A stretch of DNA of 64,000 bases, taken from NCBI RefSeq assembly GCF_000711885.1, contig NZ_JONK01000019.1, positions 1 through 64,000 of the forward strand, written 5' to 3'. Of this stretch, positions 5,601 through 27,141 are shown piece by piece. The notes under the pieces were generated by a model. The model did not search any database. It was not told the origin of the DNA and worked only from the letters and a program-made list of their open reading frames with translations. Within the stretch, counting starts at the first letter, position 1. Each line of letters opens with the position of its first letter. This DNA is from Chromobacterium haemolyticum DSM 19808 (GTDB lineage Bacteria > Pseudomonadota > Gammaproteobacteria > Burkholderiales > Chromobacteriaceae). The position numbers were made by a program, and so were the translations under genes.

Positions 5601-7067
5601 ATGACGACAATAGATAAGACGCCTCCCAAGATCAGCGTCTTTGCCTTTGTCATGATCACCGCCGCCGTGGTCGTCAGCGTCCGCACGCTGCCAATGACGG
5701 CTCAACCGGGGATGATGACGATTTTCCTGACCTTGGCGGCCGCGCTGCTGTTTCTGGTGCCCACCGCCCTGGTGTCCGCTGAACTGGCCACCGCCTGGCC
5801 GCAGGATGGCGGCCTGTTCATCTGGGTTCGCGAAGCCTTTGGCGAGCGCATGGGCTTTGTCGCAGTGTGGATGCAGTGGATACAGATGGTGTTCGGCATG
5901 ACCTCCATCATCATGATCATCGCCGCCACTTTCGCCTATGTGTTCGACCCTGCCCTCGCCAGCAACAAGTTCTACATGCTGGCGATGATCGTGGGCATCT
6001 GGTGGGCCTGCACCTTGGTGAACATGCGCGGCGTGAAAACCCTGGGCTGGGTGTCCACCATCTGCGTGAGCCTGGGCGTCTTCATGCCCGGCGTGGTGCT
6101 GATCGGTTGCGGCATCGCCTATCTGGCCGGCGGCCATCCCATCATGACCGACGTGTCCTGGAGCTGGAACAACCTGGTCCCCAGCTTTAGCGACAGCGGC
6201 ACGCTCGGCCTCTTCATCGGCTTCATTTTCGTGGTGATGGGCATGGAGGTGTCCGCGTCCAACGTCTCCTCCATCAAAGACGCCCGGCGCAATTATCCCA
6301 TTGCCATCATTCTGGTGTCGGTGATCATGGTATTGCTGTCCGTGATCGGCTCCGCGGCGATCTTCATCGCCATTCCCAAGGAAAAAATCTCGATGACCGC
6401 CGGCTTGATGCAGGCCTTCGAGCTCTACTTCAATCAATGGGGCATGGGCTGGCTGGCTCCTGTCATAGGCCTGTGCATCGGCCTGGGTCTGGTGGGCCAG
6501 GTGAACTCCTGGGTGCTGGGCCCGGTGCGCGGCTTGCAAGCCACCGCGGACTCCGGCGCACTGCCCAAATTCCTGCAGACGACCAACCGCCACGGCGTGC
6601 CGGTCACTCTGGTGCTGATCCAGGCAGCGGCCATTACCGTCGTCGGCGTGCTGATCACCGTGATGCCGAACGTGGATAACTTCTACTTCATGCTGATGGG
6701 CCTGACCGGGCTCGTCTATCTGGTGGCCTATCTGTTCATGTTCTCCGCCGCCATCTACCTGCGTTACAAGCGTCCGGACGTGGAACGCAGTTTCCGAGTG
6801 CCCGGAGGCAACGCGGGCATGTGGGTCTGCTCCGGCCTGGGCATCGTCATCTCGCTGCTGGCCGGCTACCTGGGTTTCATCCCGCCGGGCAGCTTCCATG
6901 GCTCCTCCCACGAATACCTGCAATTCCAGCTCATCGGGCTCGCCATCATGCTGGTGATTCCCTTCCTGGTGTACGCCTATGGCCAAAAAGCCAAGCACGC
7001 CCGCTCCGCCGGCGTTGCGCCGCGCACCTCTCCCGCCAGCAAAGCGCGTCCCGCCGAAGGCAAATGA
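5601..7067 (+). CDS. APC-family amino acid antiporter, probably tyrosine/tyramine exchange (GadC-like)
   Basis: This inner-membrane protein (488 aa from ATG 5601, about 12 hydrophobic segments) is of the glutamate:GABA antiporter branch of the APC superfamily. ISVFAFVMITAAVVVSVR starts TM1, and TWPQDGGLFIWVREAFG contains the conserved GG(L/I)xxW loop. I chose 5601 because GGAG sits six bases before it; in-frame ATGs at 5589 and an earlier start at 5577 lack this. It lies 36 bp before a tyrosine decarboxylase gene and is probably co-transcribed, so I infer that it exchanges tyrosine for tyramine. Another amine or amino acid pair is possible. Confidence 0.78.
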   Translation: MTTIDKTPPKISVFAFVMITAAVVVSVRTLPMTAQPGMMTIFLTLAAALLFLVPTALVSAELATAWPQDGGLFIWVREAFGERMGFVAVWMQWIQMVFGMTSIIMIIAATFAYVFDPALASNKFYMLAMIVGIWWACTLVNMRGVKTLGWVSTICVSLGVFMPGVVLIGCGIAYLAGGHPIMTDVSWSWNNLVPSFSDSGTLGLFIGFIFVVMGMEVSASNVSSIKDARRNYPIAIILVSVIMVLLSVIGSAAIFIAIPKEKISMTAGLMQAFELYFNQWGMGWLAPVIGLCIGLGLVGQVNSWVLGPVRGLQATADSGALPKFLQTTNRHGVPVTLVLIQAAAITVVGVLITVMPNVDNFYFMLMGLTGLVYLVAYLFMFSAAIYLRYKRPDVERSFRVPGGNAGMWVCSGLGIVISLLAGYLGFIPPGSFHGSSHEYLQFQLIGLAIMLVIPFLVYAYGQKAKHARSAGVAPRTSPASKARPAEGK

Positions 7068-12813: not shown

Positions 12814-12861
12814 TGGTGGGCCCCCGGGGAGTCGAACCCCGCACCAACGGATTATGAGTCC
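12814..12861 (-). repeat. attL: 48-bp duplicate of the tRNA 3' part
   Basis: The 48 bases are identical to 27063-27110 and cover the tRNA from the CCA end to the anticodon stem. The sequence beyond does not continue the tRNA, so this is an attachment-site remnant and not a functional tRNA. It marks the left border of the prophage. Confidence 0.92.
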
Positions 12862-12907
12862 ATACCAACAGGCAACTTTGCCTCACAATGCATAACTTTA
12901 CAAAGGC

Positions 12908-13087
12908 TTAGTCACTATCATCTAACTTTACAGCTTCATCGGCCGACAATAGCGTTGATCCTTCGTTGTACTTCTTGTCCCACTCCTCGCTTCCCCACTC
13001 CATCCCAACTTGCGCTGCATCAAGCCATTCTCGCTCTTCCTGAGTAAGCGGCGAATAGTACACATCTACTCGTTTTCTATTGGGCAT
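12908..13087 (-). CDS. Small acidic prophage protein
   Basis: This 59-aa protein starting at ATG 13087 has GGGGAG six bases upstream, a good ribosome binding site that belongs to the edge of the 160-bp hairpin repeat. A longer reading frame to 13135 would start inside the repeat and is rejected. The sequence is rich in acidic and aromatic residues (EEREWLDAAQVGMEWGSEEW). I do not recognise it. It is the last gene before attL. Confidence 0.5.
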   Translation of the reverse strand: MPNRKRVDVYYSPLTQEEREWLDAAQVGMEWGSEEWDKKYNEGSTLLSADEAVKLDDSD

Positions 13088-13090
13088 TGT

Positions 13091-13250
13091 CGGCTCCCCG
13101 AGCATAAGACCGTCGAGCCTTGCCCCACACCCCACAAACGACCGCGTTTGATCCTCGGGGGCTGGGGTGAACTACCCCAGCCCCTCATTCAGCGTATGGG
13201 GCCGTATGCTTGTCAAGGGCGAGGCAAGTGGCCTCTGGCCACCCTTGACA
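13091..13250. repeat. Multi-hairpin direct repeat, copy A
   Basis: About 160 bp shares most bases with copy B (14938-15095). It contains a perfect 11-bp stem, GGGGCTGGGGT / ACCCCAGCCCC with a short loop (about 13163-13188), and a long stem, TGTCAAGGG / CCCTTGACA (13211-13250), enclosing GTGGCC/GGCCAC. Clusters of strong hairpins like this are typical of filamentous phage intergenic regions (replication origin and packaging signal). That role is inferred. Confidence 0.85.
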
Positions 13251-13280
13251 AGGGCCGTTTCATTCGACATCGATGTGTCT

Positions 13281-14726
13281 TCAAAGCAAAGTTCCATCGG
13301 GCATGGGGTCAAGTTCTGGAATAAGTCTTGTAAGAGTTCCTTTGAATAGCGGTCTGTATGGGCCTTTGTTAAATCCTTCATTCTGTATCAAGGTTTTAAA
13401 AACTCCATTTCTTGATACGTCTTGCATGATCATTTCAAACTGTTGACTGCCATATATTCGATATGGACACGTTTCCAACAGAGATTTGTCTAGACGTTCT
13501 TTGGTTAGCCTCTCCACTACCATGTCATTCAGCATTTTTTTGAAGGCTGGATTTTCTATGCGCCAATTCTCTAATGTAACAACTACATTACATATTGGAA
13601 GTTCCCCAACTTCAAAATCTGGAATCTTGCCTTCTTTTGCATCATTGATATTTTTGTAGTTTTGAATTACTGCATCAGCTAGTTTATTTATATCGAATGA
13701 TAATGTTTCACCATCAAAGTTGATTTGAGACTTAATGGTCAAACGCTTTGTTTTGCATTCGATGAATGCGAGGCCAGTCGCGTCAATCAACTTCCAGTCG
13801 ACACCAAGGTGTTCTTTGCCTTTTGATATTTTATATTGTGCTTCATGTATTATCTTAAACGATTCATGTGGGAGGGTCTCCTTTAGCACATCACCAATGT
13901 AATTTTCAAATGCATCGCCCCATGCCTCTGAGAATTTTTTCTCTTGACGTATGTCGTAATATATACCGCTTGTAATTCTCCAAATCAAGAACTGCTGACT
14001 TATCCCTAAAATTTTTTCAGGATACCCCTTGTCGAAAATTAATGGCTTTTCCCTTAGTGGGTTGAACGCAAATTGCCATTCCTCTTCATTTATTTGATTC
14101 GCCGCTGCACGTTCTTTTATGTCCTCAATCGAATCCGCTGTTATTTTGAAAAAAGAAATATCAGCTCCAGGTTTTATTCCTGGCGTTTGTGAGTAATTAG
14201 ACGACAGTATGTGAGCGGAACCACGAATAGACCCCGCAACAGCCAATCCAATTTTGTATAAATCTTGGATGGATATTTTTAGTCTATTTTCGACAATTTC
14301 TTTTAGAGGACCGTGCTCCATGATTTTAGCGTAACGAACAAATCTAAGGATAAAGTTGTCATCTTGCCATGGTATTTGTTGGTGAGAAATCGCATGCAAC
14401 TTTTTGAATGCGTCACCTGTGGATTTTACGGTTTTTTCCGACGTTAGTGCTGATGCTTTTCTAATGTATTTTATGCATAATTCCAAGTCAAATTTTTGTT
14501 TTGAATGTCTTTTTTCAGGGAGCTGTATAGTTCCTACGCAGTTTAATATTATTTCGCGCGCAAGGATGTCGATCTCCCATGGGAATGCTTGACTTGCTAT
14601 TTTGTTGCCAGTGTTTATTGGCTTCTCATCACCAATTTTTGACGTGGCATGCCATATTTTTATCAGGCATAGATACATATTTTTATTGCTTAAATATTTT
14701 CGGAGCTTGTTGTGGTATATATTCAT
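13281..14726 (-). CDS. Putative PD-(D/E)XK nuclease-like protein, prophage cargo
   Basis: This 481-aa soluble protein belongs to no family I can name. The C-terminal half contains a pattern fitting a PD-(D/E)XK nuclease core: GNAF-like AWGDAFENYIGDVL (about residues 265-280), then VDWKL with D310 and FIECKTKRL with E323-x-K325, followed by a helix region. The N-terminal 250 residues are largely helical. Base composition is far richer in AT than the phage and chromosome, indicating separate acquisition. The gene stands alone between the two copies of a 160-bp repeat. A defence nuclease (phage restriction or superinfection exclusion) is my inference; a different nuclease role is possible. Confidence 0.6.
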   Translation of the reverse strand: MNIYHNKLRKYLSNKNMYLCLIKIWHATSKIGDEKPINTGNKIASQAFPWEIDILAREIILNCVGTIQLPEKRHSKQKFDLELCIKYIRKASALTSEKTVKSTGDAFKKLHAISHQQIPWQDDNFILRFVRYAKIMEHGPLKEIVENRLKISIQDLYKIGLAVAGSIRGSAHILSSNYSQTPGIKPGADISFFKITADSIEDIKERAAANQINEEEWQFAFNPLREKPLIFDKGYPEKILGISQQFLIWRITSGIYYDIRQEKKFSEAWGDAFENYIGDVLKETLPHESFKIIHEAQYKISKGKEHLGVDWKLIDATGLAFIECKTKRLTIKSQINFDGETLSFDINKLADAVIQNYKNINDAKEGKIPDFEVGELPICNVVVTLENWRIENPAFKKMLNDMVVERLTKERLDKSLLETCPYRIYGSQQFEMIMQDVSRNGVFKTLIQNEGFNKGPYRPLFKGTLTRLIPELDPMPDGTLL

Positions 14727-14784
14727 TTTTTTGTGCCGCTATGTTTGCGTTCTTTGTGCTTTGACTTTTAAAATATATAATGGC

Positions 14785-14803
14785 TTTACAATTTAAATGT
14801 AAA
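14785..14803. promoter_or_regulatory. Operator-like inverted repeat before the nuclease gene
   Basis: TTTACA-ATTTAAA-TGTAAA lies 59 bp upstream of the start at 14726, inside a very AT-rich promoter region that also contains TATATAA-like hexamers (14772-14779). It could bind a repressor of the cargo gene. Confidence 0.4.
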
Positions 14804-14822
14804 ATTTTTTACCTGTTCTGAA

Positions 14823-14936
14823 CTAAAGCTCCTCACGACAACAACTATTTGTCATTGCCAACAAGGCCTGCACAGTGTTTGGGTCGTTTTTGATTCTTCT
14901 TGAGTGGCGCTCAATGCTTGCCAGCGTATAACGCAA
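14823..14936 (-). CDS. Possible 37-aa peptide behind repeat copy B
   Basis: A TTG start at 14936 follows GGGGGAG of the repeat edge at proper spacing. The frame reads RYTLASIERHSRRIKNDPNT and ends at TAG 14823-14825. The arrangement copies that of the 59-aa gene behind repeat copy A, although the peptides are unrelated. The start codon is weak and no homologue is known to me. Confidence 0.25.
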   Translation of the reverse strand: MRYTLASIERHSRRIKNDPNTVQALLAMTNSCCREEL

Positions 14937-14937
14937 T

Positions 14938-15095
14938 CGGCTCCCCCAGCATAAGACCGTGGGGCCTTGCCCCACACCCGACAAACGACCGCGTTTGATC
15001 CTCGGGGGCTGGGGTAAGTACCCCAGCCCCTTACTGAGCGTATAGAACCAGTGCTTGTCAAGGGCAAGACAAGTGGCCTACGGCCACCCTTGACA
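14938..15095. repeat. Multi-hairpin direct repeat, copy B
   Basis: This second copy of the 160-bp repeat is in the same orientation as copy A. The 11-bp stem GGGGCTGGGGT / ACCCCAGCCCC is perfect here too, with loop AAGT instead of GAACT-like bases, and the TGTCAAGGG / CCCTTGACA stem is conserved. Stems are kept while loops differ, which points to selection on structure. Together the two copies bracket the nuclease-like gene. Confidence 0.85.
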
Positions 15096-15211
15096 AACAA
15101 CCACAATGGGTGAGGAGCTAGCCATCGTACCACCATTTAGCAAAGATTCATCTAGGCAGACCTTACCCACCTCATGTGGTCTGTAATCCTGAAGAAATGT
15201 CATTTAAGCGA

Positions 15212-15239
15212 ATCAGGGGCGGCCAAAGCCGCCCCTGAT
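15212..15239. terminator. Strong terminator hairpin behind the XRE-ImmA operon
   Basis: ATCAGGGGCGGC and GCCGCCCCTGAT form a perfect 12-bp stem with a 4-base loop, about 48 bp behind the stop of the XRE-ImmA gene. The following bases on either strand are moderately T-rich (CGTTTTA on the plus strand). Confidence 0.65.
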
Positions 15240-15286
15240 CGTTTTACTGCTACACATCAAATTAACAATTTGAGTTCAGCATAATG

Positions 15287-16507
15287 CTATGCGTTACCAC
15301 TTCGCGCATTTGGAAAGGCAACAATATTATTTTTCAACTCATTTACTTTACTATCTTTTACTTTTTTCTCATTCAGCTTTAGCAACTCAAGACTGAGAAT
15401 GTTCGATGGAGCATCTGAAAAATACCCTTTAGGCAAACTACAAATATCAGCGCAATCATCAGCGGAAAGAGCAGCCACATCCAAAAATGAAGCTTTGCTA
15501 TAAATAGAATTTTCAATGAGCATACTTACAGCTCTTGGCACCAGTCGTATTTTCTCAAAGGGAATATCTTGATCAAGAGGCTCCCCTCTTCGCCATCCCC
15601 TCGCACTATAACTTTTCCAAAGTCTTAATGCATAGCTCTCGTCAATAATTCCAAGCTGTTTGCTTCTAAAAATCATTGCCGCAATAGAAACTTTCCAACG
15701 CCTTTTCAACGCTAGAAAAGTATCCAGCGATGGATTGTATACTTCGTTCGAAAAACTTTCAGCAGGCAACAAGAAAGCACCTGCGAATCTATCAGCCTGT
15801 GCCTCTATAATCTTGTGTCTTTTATTGAAGTCAATTTCACTCACGTATCGATGCAGAACAATATGACCAAGCTCATGTGCAGCATCAAACCGCGACCGAA
15901 TACTATTAGCTTTATCGGCGGCCAAGTAAACATATGGCCGCTGATCGGATGAAAACCATTTGGAAACCCCATCCATTTTTATATGGCCCAGACAATCTCG
16001 AACCATTATCACGCCTGCATTCTCCATGAACAATGTAGTATCGGAGATGGGGCCAAGACCAAGAGCAAATAGCCTTCTACACTCCAAAGCTATTTCCTCT
16101 ATATCTTCATCAGAAATTTTTAAATAATCACGCTCACCAATAGGCTTAACCTTAACCTCTGGGAAGTTAATATAATCTTGTATTTCTAGAGAAATCTCAT
16201 TTAACCATTTCAGCTTTGTTAATGCAACTTCCCTAGCTGTTTTTGTTGCAGCACAATTACTACGAAAAAAAGCTGGTTGATCCCCATATTCAGGCACAGG
16301 TTTCATAAAGAAATTAAGAGGGAAATTAAGGGCCTCCGAAACACTTTCCAAAGATAATGTTTCGGGCTTTTGCAGCCCGGCCTCCCATCTACTTAATGTA
16401 GGTGCCGATACAGAAGAAATTTGAGCGAGCGCAGTAAGCGTAAGCCCACGGGTTGCTCTAGCCTGCTTCAATCGTTCAGGCTGGAAAGTTTCAATGCCAG
16501 AACGCAT
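15287..16507 (-). CDS. XRE-family regulator fused to ImmA/IrrE metallopeptidase domain
   Basis: This 406-aa protein has an HTH_XRE domain at about residues 8-62 (LKQARATRGLTLTALAQIS, then SAPTLSRWEAGLQ) followed by a COG2856 Zn-peptidase domain with HELGH at about 210-214 and QADRFAGAFLLP downstream. ATG 16507 is preferred over the frame's earlier start at 16561 because AGAGGTAC lies just upstream and the HTH begins at once. ImmA cleaves phage/ICE repressors, and XRE-COG2856 proteins also occur in toxin-antitoxin-like and defence pairs. The gene follows its partner with a 14-bp gap, behind a strong operator. GC is low for the region. Confidence 0.85.
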   Translation of the reverse strand: MRSGIETFQPERLKQARATRGLTLTALAQISSVSAPTLSRWEAGLQKPETLSLESVSEALNFPLNFFMKPVPEYGDQPAFFRSNCAATKTAREVALTKLKWLNEISLEIQDYINFPEVKVKPIGERDYLKISDEDIEEIALECRRLFALGLGPISDTTLFMENAGVIMVRDCLGHIKMDGVSKWFSSDQRPYVYLAADKANSIRSRFDAAHELGHIVLHRYVSEIDFNKRHKIIEAQADRFAGAFLLPAESFSNEVYNPSLDTFLALKRRWKVSIAAMIFRSKQLGIIDESYALRLWKSYSARGWRRGEPLDQDIPFEKIRLVPRAVSMLIENSIYSKASFLDVAALSADDCADICSLPKGYFSDAPSNILSLELLKLNEKKVKDSKVNELKNNIVAFPNARSGNA

Positions 16508-16521
16508 TTTTGTACCTCTAA

Positions 16522-17157
16522 TTACTCGTTGTCGCGGAGATTTTTCTTTAATGTAACCCAAGCCATATCTGGCACATCCATTTCAACTGCACCATGGAAT
16601 CCCGCCAAAACCTGAGAAACCGAATCAAAGAAATGCCATCCCTTTAGATTAGTATAAGGAACACCAATGTAAATATCTTTTGGGACGGTCTGAGCTTCTT
16701 CCCGCTCAGGGTTAATGGTAACCACCAGAGCTCCTAAACCATCAGCAGGTTTTTGAGTGGAAGAAGAAAAAAGGTCCATATTCATTGGTTCTAGATAACC
16801 ATTCAAAGCAGCAATCAGCTTCCGATGCTTTGCAGGGCGTGGAATTTTGTTCTTAAACCCAACACTAATTCTTCCGTATCGGATTTCAGCTGAGCTAATC
16901 AATGAATAGCGCTCACCTTTCGGATCGGTATGTGCAGCGACACTCTGTAACCCAACAGCTTGTGCAGCTTCTCGCAACGCTCGATTTTGGTAATAGTGTC
17001 GAAGCTGCCCCCTCACCCGCCCACGCTCAGGAGTATCACAACCACGCTCAGAGTCAACATGCGCTTGGAAATATGCCGACTCAAGCCGTTCGACAGACTC
17101 CTTGAAAAATTGCTCAGGTGTGTTATGGACAATGTAGTCCAAGAGGTCCAGCTTCAT
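16522..17157 (-). CDS. Unknown 211-aa protein, partner of the XRE-ImmA gene
   Basis: This soluble protein has no signal or membrane segment and no motif I recognise. The N-terminus reads LDLLDYIVHNTPEQFFKESV, the middle is basic, and the C-terminal part contains PKDIYIGVPYTNLKGWHFFDS. It is the first gene of a two-gene operon with the XRE-ImmA protein, so they probably work together. By analogy with other XRE-COG2856 operons it may be an effector or a substrate of the peptidase, but this is only inference. The start ATG at 17157 has no perfect ribosome binding site. Confidence 0.65.
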   Translation of the reverse strand: MKLDLLDYIVHNTPEQFFKESVERLESAYFQAHVDSERGCDTPERGRVRGQLRHYYQNRALREAAQAVGLQSVAAHTDPKGERYSLISSAEIRYGRISVGFKNKIPRPAKHRKLIAALNGYLEPMNMDLFSSSTQKPADGLGALVVTINPEREEAQTVPKDIYIGVPYTNLKGWHFFDSVSQVLAGFHGAVEMDVPDMAWVTLKKNLRDNE

Positions 17158-18125: not shown

Positions 18126-19418
18126 TCAAATCGGCGTGGCATCCTCGACTTGCACCAACACCACTATTTCGCTGTTGCTCAATTGCTTCGCGTTGCTCAC
18201 AGCCCAGGATGTGAAGGGGAAGAAGCTGCGGTCTTGTGTCTCCTTCTGTGTCTTGAGGCCGCCGATGACGTATACGTCGCCGGGCTTGGCATCAAAAGTC
18301 GTGGTCAGGTTGCGCGTCATAAGCGTGGGCGAGCTATTGACCCCAGTCTTGGTGGGAACGAAGTTGGAGACCTCCTGGTTAAGTTGCAGGCTGACCACTT
18401 CACCACGAATCTGCGGCCGGGCCTCGATCACGATCCCTGACGGCTTGTAATCGACGGATTGGAGCGGGTTGCCCTTGTTGTCGTAGCTGACCTGGCCAAG
18501 AACGGGAACGTTCTCCCCGGACTGGAAGCGAGTTTGCTGGCCATCTGCGGCCAACACATCCGGGCGCGTGACGACATTGAACCGGCTATCCGTGGCGAAC
18601 AGCTCGGCCAGAACATCCAGCGATGTGGACTGCAAGCGGAATACCGACGAGCCGGCCACAGCCGCGTCAGCCGCTCCGATATGTAGCGACAGCTTTTGCG
18701 AAGCACTGCGAATGACGGCCCCCAGGTTGAATCCCTCGGTGCTGCCGCCACTGACCTCGTAAACGACCGCCCGGACACGCACTTGCTTGGCCGGCGTATC
18801 CAGGCTGGCGAGATAGCCTTTCAGCTTGGCTACTTCCTCTTCGGTGCCGTTGAAAACCAGCGTATCGGTCGGCCGGCTTTGCAAGCTCAACGGGGAGTCA
18901 CCTTTGTCGTTACTGGCCTTGGGGGTACCGTCGCTACGCGGAGCCGGGCGGTTTTGTACGAAGTGGCCGGTAGCGAACAAACCGCCGATCAAGTCGCCCA
19001 GGTAGTTGGCATCACGATAACGCGGGTGATAAATGAACACTTGGTCGGCAATGGGCTTTTCACCGTCTTCGCGCAATCGAATGAAGTCCACGCCGCTACG
19101 CCGCTCCACGACGAAACCGGCGCTACGCATCGCCTCCAGGAACATGCTCTTTGCCTGTGCAGGCGGGATGCGCTCTAGCGACATGGTGAATACCGCATCC
19201 GACTTGGCTGCCTTAGGATCAATGACGAATGGCGACTTCTGGATTTGGGTGTAATAGGCCATCACGAAGTCGCTGACCGGGATACGGTCAAAGGTCATCG
19301 AAATGGCGGAAATCGGTTTACCAAATGCTGCGGCGGGCGGTAACAGCGTGGCTAGGCATAAGCCCGGCACAATGGAACCCAGCAAGGACAGAGCAGCCAG
19401 CGGGCGCGAAACATTCAT
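18126..19418 (-). CDS. Phage secretin (pIV-like outer-membrane channel)
   Basis: A 430-aa protein with a signal peptide (LPPAAA cleavage region), N-domains typical of type II/III secretins (DRIPVSDFVMAYY, FIYHPRYRDANYLGDLIGGL) and a C-terminal secretin domain with VPVLGQ, GIVIEARPQI and the conserved FDAKPGDVYVIGGL. It would form the outer-membrane gate for virion extrusion, so this phage does not depend on a host secretin. The start overlaps the end of the Zot gene by 4 bp. Confidence 0.9.
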   Translation of the reverse strand: MNVSRPLAALSLLGSIVPGLCLATLLPPAAAFGKPISAISMTFDRIPVSDFVMAYYTQIQKSPFVIDPKAAKSDAVFTMSLERIPPAQAKSMFLEAMRSAGFVVERRSGVDFIRLREDGEKPIADQVFIYHPRYRDANYLGDLIGGLFATGHFVQNRPAPRSDGTPKASNDKGDSPLSLQSRPTDTLVFNGTEEEVAKLKGYLASLDTPAKQVRVRAVVYEVSGGSTEGFNLGAVIRSASQKLSLHIGAADAAVAGSSVFRLQSTSLDVLAELFATDSRFNVVTRPDVLAADGQQTRFQSGENVPVLGQVSYDNKGNPLQSVDYKPSGIVIEARPQIRGEVVSLQLNQEVSNFVPTKTGVNSSPTLMTRNLTTTFDAKPGDVYVIGGLKTQKETQDRSFFPFTSWAVSNAKQLSNSEIVVLVQVEDATPI

Positions 19419-20524
19419 TTGGGCAACGCCTCCCCGAGCAACGATGAATCACTCTTGGCCGAACCAGACGAAAACGAGACTGCCTGGCCATCTACCTCGG
19501 CAGAGGTGGCAAATCCGTCAGGCACGAATCTAGTCGGCGTCACCGTTTGGATGCCTTCCGGGGTTCTGACCAGCACACGTATGCTCTCCCCGGAAGACAA
19601 GTAGCCCACGAGGGCTACCCTGTTTTTCCGCGAAGAAGGCTTACCGACAGATAGCTTGTCCTCCAGCAAGCCGGAGGATGAAGCATTGGCTGTTTGCTTG
19701 GTTTGCGGTGCCGCCGGCTTGTGGGAATCACCCAGCAGATAGGGAGCAAACACACTGTATAAGCCGTAAAGGCCAGCAGCTGGCGCAAGCAGCGCGCAGC
19801 TGAAAACCAGCGCGTTTTTCTTGGTAAAGAGTGTGGCACGCCCATCTACCTTGACCTCTTTACCGACGCCGCCGACATGCGAGTCATACAGCCCGAAGTA
19901 ATCTTTGTCGTACTTGGCCTGATACTGGCTGATGACATCTTTGATGCGCATCTTGTGGCCTTCGTAAATGGTGATCACATAGCGATTCTTCCAATACGGG
20001 ATGGCCGCGAGCGCGGTATGTTTTTTCATGTGGAAAGTCTGCTGAATCGTAGCTTTGACAAAGCGGTTCAGCGATGTATCGATGTCCTGGCAGAGAAAGA
20101 CCAGATCGCAGGTCACACCCGTGACCGGGTGGGCATAGTGCCGATGCATGCGGAAGAACTTCTTGTGCTCTTCGGATAGCTTGCGATCCGGGCCATGGGT
20201 TTCCCAGGCCTCATCGATCACCACTAGATCGCCGGGTCTGACGAAGCTATCGACCTCGCCATTGGTGGCCAGCAGCAACTCGGGATCAAAGAAAAAATTC
20301 GGTGCCAGGATGATATCCGGTGTGAGCGGGATGATTTCTCCGAGTGTCGCCTCTAGTTTGGCAAGCGCCTTCCGCTCGATCAGGTCGTGAATCTTGTCCT
20401 GCCGGATGTTGCGGATATTGGTGAGCACCCGCCGCCCCTGGGCGATGGCGGGGACGATCACCGATTTGACCGCTTCGAATGACTTGCCAGAGCCTTGCAA
20501 GCCGCAATAAACGTACATGGCCAT
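19415..20524 (-). CDS. zot: Zot/pI-family assembly ATPase
   Basis: This inner-membrane assembly protein (369 aa) drives filamentous virion extrusion. Walker A is GLQGSGKS at residues 8-15 and Walker B is LVVIDEAW near 105. A single membrane segment (ALVFSCALLAPAAGLYGLY, about 239-257) separates the cytoplasmic ATPase from a periplasmic C-terminal part. It is the hallmark inovirus protein. It lies between the DUF2523 and the secretin genes. Confidence 0.95.
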   Translation of the reverse strand: MAMYVYCGLQGSGKSFEAVKSVIVPAIAQGRRVLTNIRNIRQDKIHDLIERKALAKLEATLGEIIPLTPDIILAPNFFFDPELLLATNGEVDSFVRPGDLVVIDEAWETHGPDRKLSEEHKKFFRMHRHYAHPVTGVTCDLVFLCQDIDTSLNRFVKATIQQTFHMKKHTALAAIPYWKNRYVITIYEGHKMRIKDVISQYQAKYDKDYFGLYDSHVGGVGKEVKVDGRATLFTKKNALVFSCALLAPAAGLYGLYSVFAPYLLGDSHKPAAPQTKQTANASSSGLLEDKLSVGKPSSRKNRVALVGYLSSGESIRVLVRTPEGIQTVTPTRFVPDGFATSAEVDGQAVSFSSGSAKSDSSLLGEALPK

Positions 20525-20825: not shown

Positions 20826-22157
20826 CTATGCCCTCAATACGATAAAAAACGCCACCAGCCCCCAGCAGGCAGCAAAGACAGGCTCCAGAATGGGACGAAC
20901 CTTCTCGAGCATGGCGCATTGCTCATCCAAGTGATGCACCGCTCCTTCTCGGAAAAAGGACAAATCCAGATCAACTGAAGGGCATTGACCATCGCCGGAG
21001 GGCAAGGTCACACCCTTCAATGGGTTCAAGGCATCAATGACGGGCTGCATGATCTGTAAACCGGTAGGCGTCTCTTCCAACTGCGGTTCAGCTACCGTCG
21101 GCGCAGTTCCAAGATCGACGGTTGCGCCTTGGCTACCGGTGCCCGTATTGGTAGTAGCGCCAGTACCACCCCATGTTCCAGGCAGAGTAATTGATGGGTC
21201 CCAATATGGCGTCCCGGGGCGGGCATCGGCCCAGCCGGCCGGAGCCTGATCATTAGAGCCAACCGCAATAGGAGCTAATGCCCCGCTCAGCGGAGTAGAT
21301 ACACCAGTAGCCTTGATATCGGATGCGCTGATCGAATTGGGACGAGATAACTCCGGAGGCCATGCAAGACCTGGCGCACGCTGTCGCGCATCATCTATTG
21401 CTGAAGAAAGCGCGGCGGCAATGAGTGCAGGGTTCACTTGATCATTGGCACGAGAGTCCGGCAAGTCTGATGCTGCAAGAGTATTGCTAGTGATTGGCCG
21501 AGGTTGATAGCGTAGGTCCTTCAACAGCTTGGGAGGGGTCTTCTCCATGATAAGGACCAGTTGGTAGATATGGTTATCACCGACATAGCCAAGTCCTGTG
21601 CAGGCTGAAACGCTATAGCCAGAAGCATCCAGAGTGCCACGGGGGCAGTTGCAAACAGTGTCCGGCGTTGGACAAGCATATTGCTTGGTACGCAGGAAGA
21701 TCGCGGTGTCACCATTGGGACGATTAGCAAAGACTGCATCGTTGGGGTAGCCCATCACCATCAGAGCATCCACCAGGCTGGATGAAGGTAAGGCACGTGT
21801 TGGCATCTGCGACAGGTCCATACTCGGACCAGAGAATGTAACGCTGGCACCGTCACCATGTACCAATACCCCTGGCGTTTGCTCATCGAATACCCCGGTA
21901 TTCACGGCCATCATCAGCGGCGCCGCTAGCACTACTGACTTCCCCAAGTATCGGACAGCTGACGAACGGGCAACCGTTCGCATGATCTGTGCGCCAAGCT
22001 GGGTATTCACTTTGAGCGTGGCCAGTTTGTCAGCCAATGCAGCGCCCATTGCTGCGTTGACAGCAACAGATGAGGACGGCATTCCATTCACCAGAGCAGA
22101 GCCGGCTAAAGCGCACTGAGACAGCACAATGGCAGCGCCACATAGTAAACGCTTCAT
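20826..22157 (-). CDS. Adsorption protein, TspB-like (pIII equivalent)
   Basis: A 443-aa secreted protein from ATG 22157 with a signal peptide (MKRLLCGAAIVLSQCALA). The middle is low-complexity and rich in Pro, Thr, Gly (GTGATTNTGTGSQGA), and the C-terminus has CPSVDLDLSFFREGAVHHLD, a Cys pair and a terminal membrane anchor (VFAACWGLVAFFIVLRA). This layout matches the TspB family carried by Neisseria filamentous phages and the position of pIII, which binds the host pilus. The receptor is unknown. Confidence 0.82.
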   Translation of the reverse strand: MKRLLCGAAIVLSQCALAGSALVNGMPSSSVAVNAAMGAALADKLATLKVNTQLGAQIMRTVARSSAVRYLGKSVVLAAPLMMAVNTGVFDEQTPGVLVHGDGASVTFSGPSMDLSQMPTRALPSSSLVDALMVMGYPNDAVFANRPNGDTAIFLRTKQYACPTPDTVCNCPRGTLDASGYSVSACTGLGYVGDNHIYQLVLIMEKTPPKLLKDLRYQPRPITSNTLAASDLPDSRANDQVNPALIAAALSSAIDDARQRAPGLAWPPELSRPNSISASDIKATGVSTPLSGALAPIAVGSNDQAPAGWADARPGTPYWDPSITLPGTWGGTGATTNTGTGSQGATVDLGTAPTVAEPQLEETPTGLQIMQPVIDALNPLKGVTLPSGDGQCPSVDLDLSFFREGAVHHLDEQCAMLEKVRPILEPVFAACWGLVAFFIVLRA

Positions 22158-22274
22158 ATGGATTTGAACCCTTGGACCACAGCGTTCCCGCAAGAGACTC
22201 CCAGTGCGAAAGCAGCCAAATACCACCATTCAGCAGCCATGTGCATTCCTTCAACAGATTGATCAGTCGAAATG

Positions 22275-22311: not shown

Positions 22312-22560
22312 TTAGCCCTTCATGCGCTTACGTACAGCATCGAAAGCGAAGCCGATGGCAACCAGGCCGATCATGCTGATGCAGATCGAGGCAACGGCTT
22401 GGGCTACCTTAGCGACAGGGAATGCAGCCACGAAACTGTCGATGAGCGCCGCAGTATCCACGCCGCTAGTAGCCGGAGCTGGGTCAGCAGCAAAGGCGAG
22501 CGCCGGGACGGCCAAGATGGCAACCAGAGCGAGTTTTTTGATATGAGCATTGGTGTGCAT
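22312..22560 (-). CDS. Major coat protein (pVIII-like)
   Basis: An 82-aa preprotein with signal peptide (LALVAILAVPALAFA, cleavage after AFA) giving a mature protein of about 58 residues: acidic/neutral N-terminus, one transmembrane helix (ICISMIGLVAIGFAF) and a basic C-terminus (RKRMKG) that contacts DNA. This is the pattern of inovirus major coat proteins. It stands between a small membrane protein and a strong palindrome. An AAAAGGAAAA ribosome binding site precedes the start. Confidence 0.9.
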   Translation of the reverse strand: MHTNAHIKKLALVAILAVPALAFAADPAPATSGVDTAALIDSFVAAFPVAKVAQAVASICISMIGLVAIGFAFDAVRKRMKG

Positions 22561-22572
22561 TGCGTTTTCCTT

Positions 22573-22815
22573 TTAAACACGGGTTTTGAACGGTTTGAAC
22601 AAGAAGGCCCCATAGCGGGCAATAACCCAGCTCGATACAACCATGGCAAAGGCGAACGCCCAGAAAACGCCAGCTGTTTGCCAGTTGACCGATTGGGATT
22701 TCTGCATCGCGGCATACTCCTGCGGCGAAAGCAGTACGAGGGTCTGGCATTGCTCGATCTGGATCGTATCCAGATGCAGCAAGCCGGACTCATCAGAGCG
22801 GACGCACTGAGCCAT
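22573..22815 (-). CDS. Small phage membrane protein, 80 aa (minor coat candidate)
   Basis: From ATG 22815 the product has a polar N-terminal half (HLDTIQIEQCQTLVLLSPQE) and one membrane helix (VFWAFAFAMVVSSWVIARYG). Its start overlaps the end of rep by 23 bp, showing translational coupling. It resembles small inovirus proteins ahead of the coat gene (pIX/pVII position). The longer frame to 22890 lies inside rep and is not favoured. Confidence 0.65.
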   Translation of the reverse strand: MAQCVRSDESGLLHLDTIQIEQCQTLVLLSPQEYAAMQKSQSVNWQTAGVFWAFAFAMVVSSWVIARYGAFLFKPFKTRV

Positions 22816-24652
22816 GGGGTGGCCTTCGCGGGTGCGTCGCAGAATTGGATAACCGGGGGAAAGTTGGGTCTGAACTGAAATCCAGCCCAACGCTATCCGA
22901 TCGATTCACGAGGCCGGGCAGCTGTGGGCTGTTTGCCCCTCCTCTCACATCGGCCCTAGCTTCGACAAAAGTGGGTTCCGTACAGTTATTGACACTAGTC
23001 CAAGGCTCGCTGTGCTCGCGGTTTGGTACAAACTCGACCGTCCAGTCATGGAGTCTGGATTTGATGAGGACGCCATCCTCGCAATCGGCTACGCCCAGGA
23101 TGCGGACACCGATATCCTCGCCATAGCGGTTAGTGCGGCCGGTTTCGCGGCTCAGCCGGATGGGCAAATCACCCAGCTTCAGTCCGGTTCCACCTAGTAC
23201 CCGCACGAAGCCTGCCCAATCTCCGGCGTCGGCGGCTTCCGCTGCGCGGCGGATCACTTCGCTGTCTATTTCGATATCATCATTAGTGGCGATTCGGCGC
23301 AGCTCGCGCCAGAGCGTGACGGGCGCGACACCAACTTGCTGGAACTGGCGATTTCTCCAGCACCACGCCCAACCCTGCACACGCTCGGCCGCAGTGACCG
23401 TATCCATGCCGTCAAAGTTGACGCCCACCGGCTCGCCATCGCTTTTCTTGCCATCCACGTTCTTGCAGACATACTTGGCAACGTAGCCGGCGGCCGAACC
23501 GCGCGCCCAATCGATTTCGATGCACTTGAAGCGGGCCTCGACATTGCCGGCCAGCTCCTCGCGGTCTTCACGAGTGGCGTATTCGCGGAAGATCGCGGCC
23601 AATTCGTCGGCCTGATTTGCCGGAATGAACAGCAGCAGATGCCAATGCGGGCAGCCATCATGGTGCGGTTCTGCGATTCTGAAACCGTAGGGGGAAATCT
23701 CGCGGCGATGTAGCTTCGAACGGATGTAGGAATAGACGCGGGATAGGTATTGCTGGGCTTGCCGTGGGGTGCTGCCGTTATATTTTGGATTCTTGATTAC
23801 TCTGCCCTTATCGAGCTTGCGGAAAGCATGAAAGCGGGATGGGCAGGTAATCGTCAGAAAAAGCGCTGCGTGCCCCAGGGAACGGGCAATCGCCTCGAAA
23901 CCCACAATGCGGGTCATCAACTCCGCCCGACGAACATCTGGATTCGAGACAGACAGGTCGGCCAACTCGGCCAACGTGAACTCGTCGCCCAGTTCATTGA
24001 AAGCCACGAGGCTTTCCAGCAACGAGCGGTTGCGGCAGCGTTGCGAGCGGAAGCGGGTCAAAGTGTCATCAGACACATATAGCCCGGTTCGCTGATTGAC
24101 CAGGCCGGTACGGATAGCTTCCGCCTCTACCTTGCGGGCCACGCCACGCCGGAACACCTTCCGCCAGAAACCTTCATCAATCAGGCGCTTGAAAATGCTT
24201 TCGTAAGTCACGCTCCGCTTGCCTGGCTGTGGTAGCCTCGTGCAGCCCTCTGGCGCATCTCCATCATCGAAGAAGAAAACATCGCGCTCTGCCAGGTAGT
24301 CGGCCAGGCGCTGGAAAAGTGATATGTAGTCGGAGCCATTGCACAGGCGCTGCACGGAGAGAATGTGCTGCACGGTTTCCTTTGCGGCCTGGCATAGTTC
24401 CGCATCGCTGGCCCCCAGCTTGAGAGCGCCGCCGATTTCCACGAGGTGATCACGGCAGTCTTGCACGTACAGGTTGGCGGCACGACGGGCATCGCCGTCG
24501 TACCGGAACTCCTCGGAAAAAAGCAGCTTGTTATGCTGCCGCCGAATCCGCTTGGCGAACTGGGTGGGAACGGCACGGAGCCAGCTATCCACCCACTCAC
24601 GATCTTCCACGAGGCAGGCGCGGCGGTATTCGAGTGACAGCGGATGCAGCAT
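22793..24652 (-). CDS. HUH replication initiation endonuclease, P2 gpA type
   Basis: This 619-aa protein nicks the phage double-stranded form and starts rolling-circle replication. It fits the Phage_GPA family: LFLTITCPSRFH (motif 1), PHWHLLLF with the metal-binding His-x-His at about 333, and GYVAKYVCKN at about 385-394 with two catalytic tyrosines. Many inoviruses use shorter Rep proteins, so the GPA type is a sign of mosaicism with P2-like phages. It is coupled with the ssDNA-binding gene upstream (2-bp gap). Confidence 0.9.
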   Translation of the reverse strand: MLHPLSLEYRRACLVEDREWVDSWLRAVPTQFAKRIRRQHNKLLFSEEFRYDGDARRAANLYVQDCRDHLVEIGGALKLGASDAELCQAAKETVQHILSVQRLCNGSDYISLFQRLADYLAERDVFFFDDGDAPEGCTRLPQPGKRSVTYESIFKRLIDEGFWRKVFRRGVARKVEAEAIRTGLVNQRTGLYVSDDTLTRFRSQRCRNRSLLESLVAFNELGDEFTLAELADLSVSNPDVRRAELMTRIVGFEAIARSLGHAALFLTITCPSRFHAFRKLDKGRVIKNPKYNGSTPRQAQQYLSRVYSYIRSKLHRREISPYGFRIAEPHHDGCPHWHLLLFIPANQADELAAIFREYATREDREELAGNVEARFKCIEIDWARGSAAGYVAKYVCKNVDGKKSDGEPVGVNFDGMDTVTAAERVQGWAWCWRNRQFQQVGVAPVTLWRELRRIATNDDIEIDSEVIRRAAEAADAGDWAGFVRVLGGTGLKLGDLPIRLSRETGRTNRYGEDIGVRILGVADCEDGVLIKSRLHDWTVEFVPNREHSEPWTSVNNCTEPTFVEARADVRGGANSPQLPGLVNRSDSVGLDFSSDPTFPRLSNSATHPRRPPHGSVRPL

Positions 24653-26005: not shown

Positions 26006-27013
26006 ATGGCAATCAAACCGGTGAAGACAGGCTGGCAGGTCAACATCCAGCCAGGAGGAAGGGGGGCCAAGAGGCTTAAGAAGACATTTCCCACGAAAGC
26101 AGAAGCTATAGCGTGGGAACGATATGTAAGGGCAAAGGTCCAGCAGGAGCCCGAGTGGGCTCCTGCCAAGAAAGACCCTCGCTCACTCTCCGAACTTGTT
26201 GACCTCTGGTTTCAGCACCATGGTTCAGGCTTACGATCTGGACAGGGCACGTACCAAAGGCTACTGCTCATGTGCCAAGCGATGGGCAATCCACGCGCCG
26301 AGACTTTTTCCGCAGACCTATTTGCGGCCTACAGGGCAAACCGGCTCGCGGATGGAATCTCCGCCAGCAACATGAATCGTGAGCATGCCTACATGAGAGC
26401 CGTTTTTAACGAGCTAACCAGGCTTGGCTTATGGAAAAAGGAAAATCCGCTCCAGAAGTTACGCTCCTTCAAGATACAAGAGCGGGAACTCTCATACCTA
26501 ACCGCAGAGCAGATACAAGCTCTGCTCCAAGCATTGCAAACCGGCCGTAACCAGCACGTCCAGCTCATCGCCAAGGTGTGCTTGGCAACTGGCGCGCGCT
26601 GGGGAGAGGCTGAGGCCCTTCGCAGATCGCAAGTCAGGAATGGGGTGATCCAGTTTGTACAAACCAAATCATCCAAGGCGAGAGCCATACCTATTACATC
26701 GGAACTAGAGAAAGAACTGTGCGATCACCATCGGGAACACGGCAATGGAGAGAGGCTGTTTGAAACCGCCTTCTCAGCATTTCGAGAAGGGGTGGAGCGC
26801 GCCAGCCTGACGCTGCCGGCGGGACAGCTGACCCACGTCCTTCGCCACAGCTTTGCCAGTCACTTCATGATGAACGGCGGCAACATCCTGGTGCTGCAAA
26901 GGGCGCTGGGCCACCACAACCTCACCATGACCATGCGGTACGCCCATCTTTCACCCGACCATTTGAGCGAAACTCGCGAGCTGAACCCGCTACGCGCGTT
27001 GAACCTTTGTTGA
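26006..27013 (+). CDS. int: Tyrosine recombinase integrase (P2-like)
   Basis: A 335-aa phage integrase that recombines attP with the tRNA gene. It has an N-terminal arm-binding region (basic RLKKTFPTKAEAIAWE), a SAM-like core-binding domain and a catalytic domain with ARWGEAEAL (Arg I), THVLRHSFASH (His-x-x-Arg), LGHHNLTMTMRYAH (His and nucleophile Tyr). The gene ends 49 bp before attR and reads towards it, the standard place. Both P2-type Int and P2-type Rep occur here. Confidence 0.95.
   Translation: MAIKPVKTGWQVNIQPGGRGAKRLKKTFPTKAEAIAWERYVRAKVQQEPEWAPAKKDPRSLSELVDLWFQHHGSGLRSGQGTYQRLLLMCQAMGNPRAETFSADLFAAYRANRLADGISASNMNREHAYMRAVFNELTRLGLWKKENPLQKLRSFKIQERELSYLTAEQIQALLQALQTGRNQHVQLIAKVCLATGARWGEAEALRRSQVRNGVIQFVQTKSSKARAIPITSELEKELCDHHREHGNGERLFETAFSAFREGVERASLTLPAGQLTHVLRHSFASHFMMNGGNILVLQRALGHHNLTMTMRYAHLSPDHLSETRELNPLRALNLC

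Positions 27014-27062: not shown

Positions 27063-27141
<79 letters not shown>

Follow-up and report, generated by a model that had tools for sequence, protein, structure and literature searches.

A duplicated hairpin module, probably a Rep origin region, brackets a GapS1-like nuclease gene in an inovirus prophage of Chromobacterium haemolyticum

The prophage and its two module copies

The stretch of DNA analysed here (the window) comprises positions 1–64,000 of contig NZ_JONK01000019.1 from the 5.03-Mb genome of Chromobacterium haemolyticum DSM 19808 (G000), and contains a prophage of 14,249 bp at a tRNA-Met gene. Within the prophage a hairpin-rich intergenic module occurs twice, as copy A (13091–13250) and copy B (14938–15095), one on each side of a nuclease-like gene on the minus strand (13281–14726), here called the cargo. 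A sequence-only reading had proposed that A and B are direct repeats flanking this gene, and BLAST, pairwise alignment and a covariance model all agree with that proposal. The copies lie in direct orientation, 1,847 bp apart, and are identical at 142 of 157 aligned bases (90.4%); their local alignment score of 222 compares with a mean of 17.3 (standard deviation 2.4, maximum 29) over 1000 shuffles. A BLAST search of the whole genome with copy A (E up to 0.001) returned exactly two places, copy A itself (100%) and copy B (88%, E 8e-51), and no third copy anywhere in the 5.03 Mb.

The module is built, in order, of hairpin 1, hairpin 2, a short link containing CCTC, hairpin 3, a spacer and hairpin 4, all given here on the plus strand. 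In copy A these are hairpin 1 (13112–13128), hairpin 2 (CAAACG/CGTTTG, 13135–13150), the proposed nick motif CCTCGG (13153–13158), hairpin 3 (13158–13184) and hairpin 4 (TTGTCAAGGG/CCCTTGACAA, 13210–13251). Their counterparts in copy B lie at 14959–14975, 14982–14997, 15000–15005, 15005–15030 and 15055–15096, respectively. Hairpin 1 was placed by the covariance model, hairpins 2 and 3 by folding and covariation, hairpin 4 by covariation, and the CCTCGG motif by comparison with the replication origin (ori) of phage P2. Six pieces of the two copies, covering the hairpin 1–3 part on both strands and the hairpin 3–4 part on the plus strand only, each fold as DNA into structures more stable than all 200 shuffles (z −3.1 to −7.2). 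The longest exact stretch common to A and B is 35 bases and spans hairpin 2 together with CCTCGG, an identity suggesting that both copies are under selection. The expected pattern of conserved stems with varied loops is seen in hairpins 2, 3 and 4. At hairpin 1 the copies differ: copy B forms all 34 modelled pairs of the module, whereas copy A forms 32 of 34, with two unpaired positions in hairpin 1. Hairpin 4 is perhaps a packaging signal, a guess by analogy with the Ff phages.

The prophage is bounded by 48-bp attachment (att) repeats, the left one (12814–12861) matching exactly the right one (27063–27110), which is the 3' end of the tRNA-Met gene (27063–27141, minus strand). A tyrosine integrase gene lies beside the tRNA on the plus strand (26006–27013; Pfam Phage_integrase, E 2.3e-20). 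On the minus strand are genes for a pIV-like secretin (18126–19418; Pfam Secretin, phrog_1012), a Zot-family, pI-like assembly ATPase (19415–20524; Pfam Zot, E 1.5e-18, phrog_197), a candidate pIII-like minor coat protein (20826–22229; position and phrog_3942/7187, of unknown function), a candidate major coat protein of 82 amino acids (22312–22560; position and size alone, with no family match) and Rep, a P2/GPA-type HUH rolling-circle endonuclease (22793–24652; Pfam Phage_GPA, E 5.5e-78). Because att repeats, integrase, GPA-type Rep, coat candidates, Zot and secretin occur together, the element is, by its gene content, an inovirus prophage, carrying the Zot/pI-type ATPase as well as the pIV secretin and rolling-circle Rep of such phages; the phage context suspected earlier was thus confirmed. 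An IMG/VR contig of exactly 14,249 bp has the same genes at 100% identity. A second Zot gene lies elsewhere in the host genome (contig C6:119968–120495); it probably belongs to another inovirus, which could act in trans.

Directly after copy A lies a small open reading frame (ORF) of 59 amino acids (12908–13087, minus strand, recognized from its translation), which is conserved beside the module in genomes G017 (89% identity) and G030 (57%) by tblastn. By eye, a short open frame of 37 codons with a TTG start (14818–14931, minus strand) begins right after copy B; placed as the 59-amino-acid ORF is after copy A, it may be a truncated leftover.

Related modules and a probable Rep origin

Seven other inovirus-like elements each contain the module as a single match, found by whole-genome BLAST in G017, G019 and G059 and by whole-genome covariance search in G289, G135, G113 and G031, and in all seven a GPA-type Rep and Zot lie beside it. 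The eight module-bearing inovirus-like elements are thus those of the window and of loci L038 (G017), L039, L042, L046, L050, L090 and L092; direct duplication of the module occurs in the window only (1/8). Single matches are also present in G040 and G030, there without Rep or Zot nearby. A covariance model was built from six sequences, and covariation was measured on ten aligned modules, in which 90% of cells pair and 14 of the 34 base pairs show compensatory changes. These 14 covarying pairs compare with a mean of 6.7 in shuffled alignments, none of 500 reaching as high, in an alignment that was fitted to the model structure and so favours the covariation result. When the partner strand was slid along the ten modules, all five measures dropped.

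A search for a nick site had been proposed as a check on the repeats, and both copies contain one of the P2 kind. In the P2 record the annotated ori nick falls inside CCTCGG, directly after a GCGGC/GCCGC hairpin, while in PSP3 a GGGCGC/GCGCCC hairpin precedes TCTCGG; in both window copies, likewise, a hairpin stands directly 5' of (C/T)CTCGG. In nine of the ten aligned modules CCTC comes at most a few bases after hairpin 2, and seven of them, A and B included, have the exact CCTCGG there. The Rep of the prophage is 33% identical to the P2 A protein over 430 columns, with the HUH motif (HDGCPHWH) and the tyrosine pair Y390/Y394 (Y-x3-Y) aligned, and like P2 and PSP3 the phage thus combines a two-tyrosine HUH Rep with this motif. 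The P2-like nick motif in both copies, the HWH and Y390/Y394 of Rep and its identity to P2 A together make the module probably a Rep origin region, with nicking predicted at CCTCGG. Among 35 of 80 fetched GPA-type viral loci (the best 80 of at least 599), eight have a hairpin with (C/T)CTCGG, seven in rep sense and one on the other strand, and the reversed motif in the same 35 gave 1 and 2.

A number of observations weigh against the module being an origin that serves in both copies. Hairpin 1 of copy A is broken, and A and B are hardly closer to each other than to the single module of G017, with no recent exchange showing between them. The module of G113 lacks CCTC, and that of G031, which is outside the ten, has TCTCGG within the hairpin-2 region and not behind it; 27 of the 35 viral loci show no hairpin with (C/T)CTCGG near rep. 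In P2 and PSP3 the site lies inside the rep gene on its sense strand, annotated in P2 on the plus strand like the A gene, whereas in the window it lies in an intergenic module, twice, and in each of the eight module-bearing inovirus-like elements the module strand with the motif, where the motif is present, runs antisense to the phage genes. Rep may nick that strand, in which case the virion strand would be antisense; otherwise the nick would fall on the opposite strand at the same spot. To our knowledge, an antisense virion strand is not known from Ff. The predicted circles discussed below are the same in both cases, since either strand choice gives them. Skew at third codon positions, as a guide to the virion strand, is the same in the phage core as in the host and gave no answer.

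Related phages that lack the module also count on this side. Model R1 found no match in 16 of 25 sources, namely L037 (a near relative whose contig ends before the place of the module), L063 and 14 sources with GPA-type Reps. Two of these 14 are GPA-Rep inoviruses, that of G014 (L047) and the Vibrio phage Vaf1 (L057); the other 12 are GPA-Rep loci whose inovirus status is not shown. Model R2, run unfiltered on the G014, Vaf1, G056 and G037 loci, scored at most 10.8 bits. G014 belongs to the same genus as the window; its coat, Zot, pIII and secretin are 47–65% identical to those of the prophage, and among the loci compared its coat, Zot and secretin are the next closest after G017 and L037. Because G014 and Vaf1 lack a match, the module is, as judged by these models, no general property of GPA-Rep inoviruses, and in phages of this type the origin would either have diverged or be located elsewhere. 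The suggestion that the repeat is a phage intergenic or Rep origin region therefore gains from seven further GPA-Rep elements, covariation and a P2-like motif, and loses generality with two GPA-Rep inoviruses in which no module is matched. In L047, a 14-base match to the motif and the start of hairpin 3 lies just beyond the secretin gene (5661–5674), with no hairpin seen before it.

Wider searches returned few matches, from which we conclude that the module belongs to a narrow group. With stricter filters, the covariance search of an order-level sample of 399 genomes matched 15 (G000 included) at E up to 0.01, and model R2 on a class-level sample matched one of 369 at E up to 0.001, G000 itself. 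Model R1, run on the 80 best of at least 599 viral loci with a GPA-type Rep, matched a single one at E up to 0.1, from Pseudogulbenkiania, and copy B had no match in a phage DNA collection. The exact-core pattern occurs in two viral contigs (this prophage and that of Pseudogulbenkiania) and six genome contigs, one of them Pseudogulbenkiania, another L063, and four more; the Type-II core was found in no viral contig. L063 has the core without the other parts of the module and no model match, and was rejected as a homologue, the core match being put down to chance. G010 has a module match of 42 bits, with its Zot on another contig, and weak covariance matches in G223, G387, G186, G379 and G419 are given here without interpretation.

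A related, more distant hairpin module occurs as inverted pairs, with some 6 kb between the partners, in three genomes from a different family (L093 6542–13160, L094 6774–13267, L096 6573–12766), in none of which Zot was found. The pair in L093 encloses a TrwC-type relaxase gene beside an integrase-like ORF. Because this distant form flanks an element with a relaxase but no Zot, modules of this type are perhaps not restricted to phages.

The bracketed nuclease and the history of the duplication

The cargo encodes a PD-(D/E)XK nuclease of 481 amino acids that is a distant relative of the anti-phage protein GapS1. It aligns with NCBIfam NF047931 (GapS1) over residues 90–437 (E 5.4e-18), at 65.1 bits and thus far under the curated cut-off of 320 for family membership. 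The motif VDW..D..IECK, a PD-(D/E)XK-type active site, is identical in the cargo and in three plasmid homologues of 26–29% identity. The guanine-plus-cytosine (GC) content of the cargo gene is 0.376; both the phage core, at 0.57, and the host stretch, at 0.617, are richer in GC. The gene had been described as low-GC and nuclease-like, and on both counts the description stands; judged from its sequence, the product is a probable anti-virus nuclease. Relatives occur in 21 plasmid records, all below 60% identity and the best-covered at 26–29%, while among 150 genomes including G000 the gene was found only in G000, and in the phage collection not at all. A single-sequence fold had a mean predicted local distance difference test score (pLDDT) of 34 and was unusable. 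The nuclease is the one recognisable gene between the copies, and no integrase-like ORF lies there.

Strong hairpins on both sides of a foreign low-GC gene could also be insulators, that is, transcription terminators that isolate the gene and have no role in choosing between circles. A part in stopping the transcription of gene IV has been attributed to the packaging-signal region of M13 (PMC10334589). However, terminator-like sites in 12900–15400 are no commoner than in shuffles (3 versus a mean of 2.4), just one of them, a weak one at the end of copy A, overlaps a copy, and the conserved sequence includes the CCTC link and not the stems alone. We consider this explanation improbable, and insulation as the main role was dropped.

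A second defence-like locus lies close by. Adjacent genes for RmrA (15287–16561, minus strand; Rosmerta antitoxin family with a helix-turn-helix and an ImmA-type protease, PADLOC E 4.7e-171) and RmrT (16522–17157, minus strand; Rosmerta toxin family, PADLOC E 2.6e-75) form a Rosmerta (RmrTA) pair between the secretin gene and copy B, so that the prophage has two defence-like loci; Rosmerta is a family with tested anti-phage members (PMC10440598). The genes around the module were read in seven elements and are defence-like in four: an AbiL pair in G019, GmrSD-N and AAA genes in G059, the Rosmerta pair and GapS1-like gene in the window, and Olokun in G040 (OloA E 1e-87, OloB E 4e-184). The remaining three are G030, with a KfrA-like neighbour; G289, two of whose genes were searched without an informative match; and G017, whose accessory slot (L038 5260–6788) holds two genes with no informative match in Pfam, PADLOC or NCBIfam. 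The slot genes of G017 encode 314 and 193 amino acids, the latter protein membrane-bound in look by eye. Filamentous prophages of Vibrio are comparable in having a variable locus with accessory genes near the prophage border, often defence systems; they differ in that the sections consulted of that survey describe no flanking duplicated origin (PMC11630473).

In G017 a single module stands between the accessory slot and the small ORF beside att, and the 225 bp of the window that flank copy A on its left share 92% identity with G017. This places copy A, on sequence comparison, in the ancestral position, and the added unit is therefore module plus nuclease. The identity between A and B (90.4%) hardly exceeds that of A or B to the G017 module (89.2% and 88.5%, respectively); copy B thus probably came from another phage, and recent tandem duplication was considered and dropped. 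A different history would join two overlapping mobile elements: copy A, the 59-amino-acid ORF and att would be the end of a separate short element, similar to that in G030, that either inserted next to a phage owning copy B or recombined with it. The G030 element has the order att, integrase, KfrA-like gene, module, ORF, att, in a genome where neither a GPA-Rep match nor Zot was found. Yet G017 has the ORF and single module within the phage itself, 92% identical to the window flank, and the absence of an integrase-like ORF between the copies also speaks against such a merger, which we regard as a poor prospect.

The chief rival to a functional role for both copies is a scar of homologous recombination. 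A circle with an intergenic region and the nuclease may have recombined into the phage's own intergenic region; the copies would now provide homology only, or one would be inert, and Rep would not act at both. The distances among A, B and the G017 module are roughly equal, which fits a unit acquired from another phage; copy A has a degraded hairpin 1; and the Vibrio survey suggests that homologous recombination between co-infecting phages exchanges accessory loci (PMC11630473). Against an inert copy stands the 35-base core with hairpin 2 and CCTCGG, identical in both copies, which suggests selection on both. On balance we hold the scar unlikely, while taking it more seriously than the insulator or two-element explanations.

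Alternative circles and candidate satellites

Our preferred reading, to which we give a probability of just under one half (0.47), is that Rep acts at both copies and makes alternative circles with and without the cargo. A and B would be two versions of the inovirus intergenic region, where a P2-type Rep nicks and rejoins and where a packaging signal perhaps also lies. A second unit of origin plus GapS1-like nuclease would have been added beside the original region, and the excised 14.25-kb circle would therefore have two Rep sites in direct orientation. If Rep started at one site and ended at the other, it would yield a 12.4-kb phage circle without the nuclease; the alternative product would be a 1.85-kb circle that carries the nuclease together with a single hybrid origin. 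The full genome would result when Rep ran past the first site it reached without terminating. As long as the phage stays integrated, neither copy would be lost. Should initiation depend on hairpin 1, which is intact in B and broken in A, most starts would occur at B while A would act chiefly as the stop, and the cargo-free 12.4-kb circle would result. The use of both sites and the two circles are proposed by analogy with engineered filamentous phages.

Two-origin f1 constructs are said to have been described by Dotto and Horiuchi in 1981. The Ff-nano system replicates, in circular form, the DNA lying between two pII cut sites (PMC4403547), and split f1 origins yield miniphagemids (PMC10334589). 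These constructs resemble the proposal in that two direct Rep nick sites bracket a segment and a start–stop event gives a separate packaged circle (PMC4403547, PMC10334589). They differ in being engineered and in using the pII of Ff, whereas the window holds a natural prophage, known from its sequence, with a P2-like motif around a defence-like gene. In listings from an incomplete literature library, no report described a natural inovirus whose duplicated origins bracket a defence gene.

CTXphi/RS1 is a filamentous phage system with repeated replication regions and an optional segment, and RS1 has regulatory and replication genes of its own and depends on a helper. The likeness to CTXphi/RS1 drawn in the sequence-only reading lies in the repeated replication regions and optional segment; it is an analogy only, and a loose one, because the cargo, a single nuclease gene lying inside the phage, brings no phage-like genes of its own. 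Membership among RS1-type satellites was dropped, as the segment between the copies has one recognisable gene, the nuclease.

Should Rep use both copies, a natural filamentous phage would do what engineered two-origin f1 constructs do. The defence gene would be optional in each round of replication and perhaps exported alone in a short particle. The rapid turnover of defence genes among small phages, and the emergence of satellites of such phages, would then have a simple mechanistic basis. For a group of GPA-type inoviruses, the module furthermore supplies a model of the origin.

A more speculative extension, which we rate as a long shot, is that the origin/packaging module and a defence gene form a mobile cassette. 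Its small circle would be released by Rep and packaged by phage coat proteins, and the cassette would enter other phages by module recombination or live alone between att sites as a defence-carrying satellite of filamentous phages. Candidates for such lone cassettes are the elements of G040 and G030. That a repeat of this kind might occur without any phage genes had been named in advance as evidence against a phage role, and these two elements go part of the way: they carry the module with no Rep or Zot nearby, and both keep one small phage-family ORF between att repeats, for which reason they look like satellites or deletion remnants. The G030 element spans 4.7 kb at a tRNA-Met gene (L040 4966–9667). 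The G040 element spans 4.6 kb at the 3' end of guaA (L091 8874–13558), with no integrase, Rep or Zot seen within it, in a genome with no GPA-Rep match and one Zot gene, on another contig. Between its 78-bp repeats lie a 116-amino-acid ORF, the module and the Olokun pair, the ORF and module falling within a 575-bp stretch that is 91% identical to the G059 inovirus.

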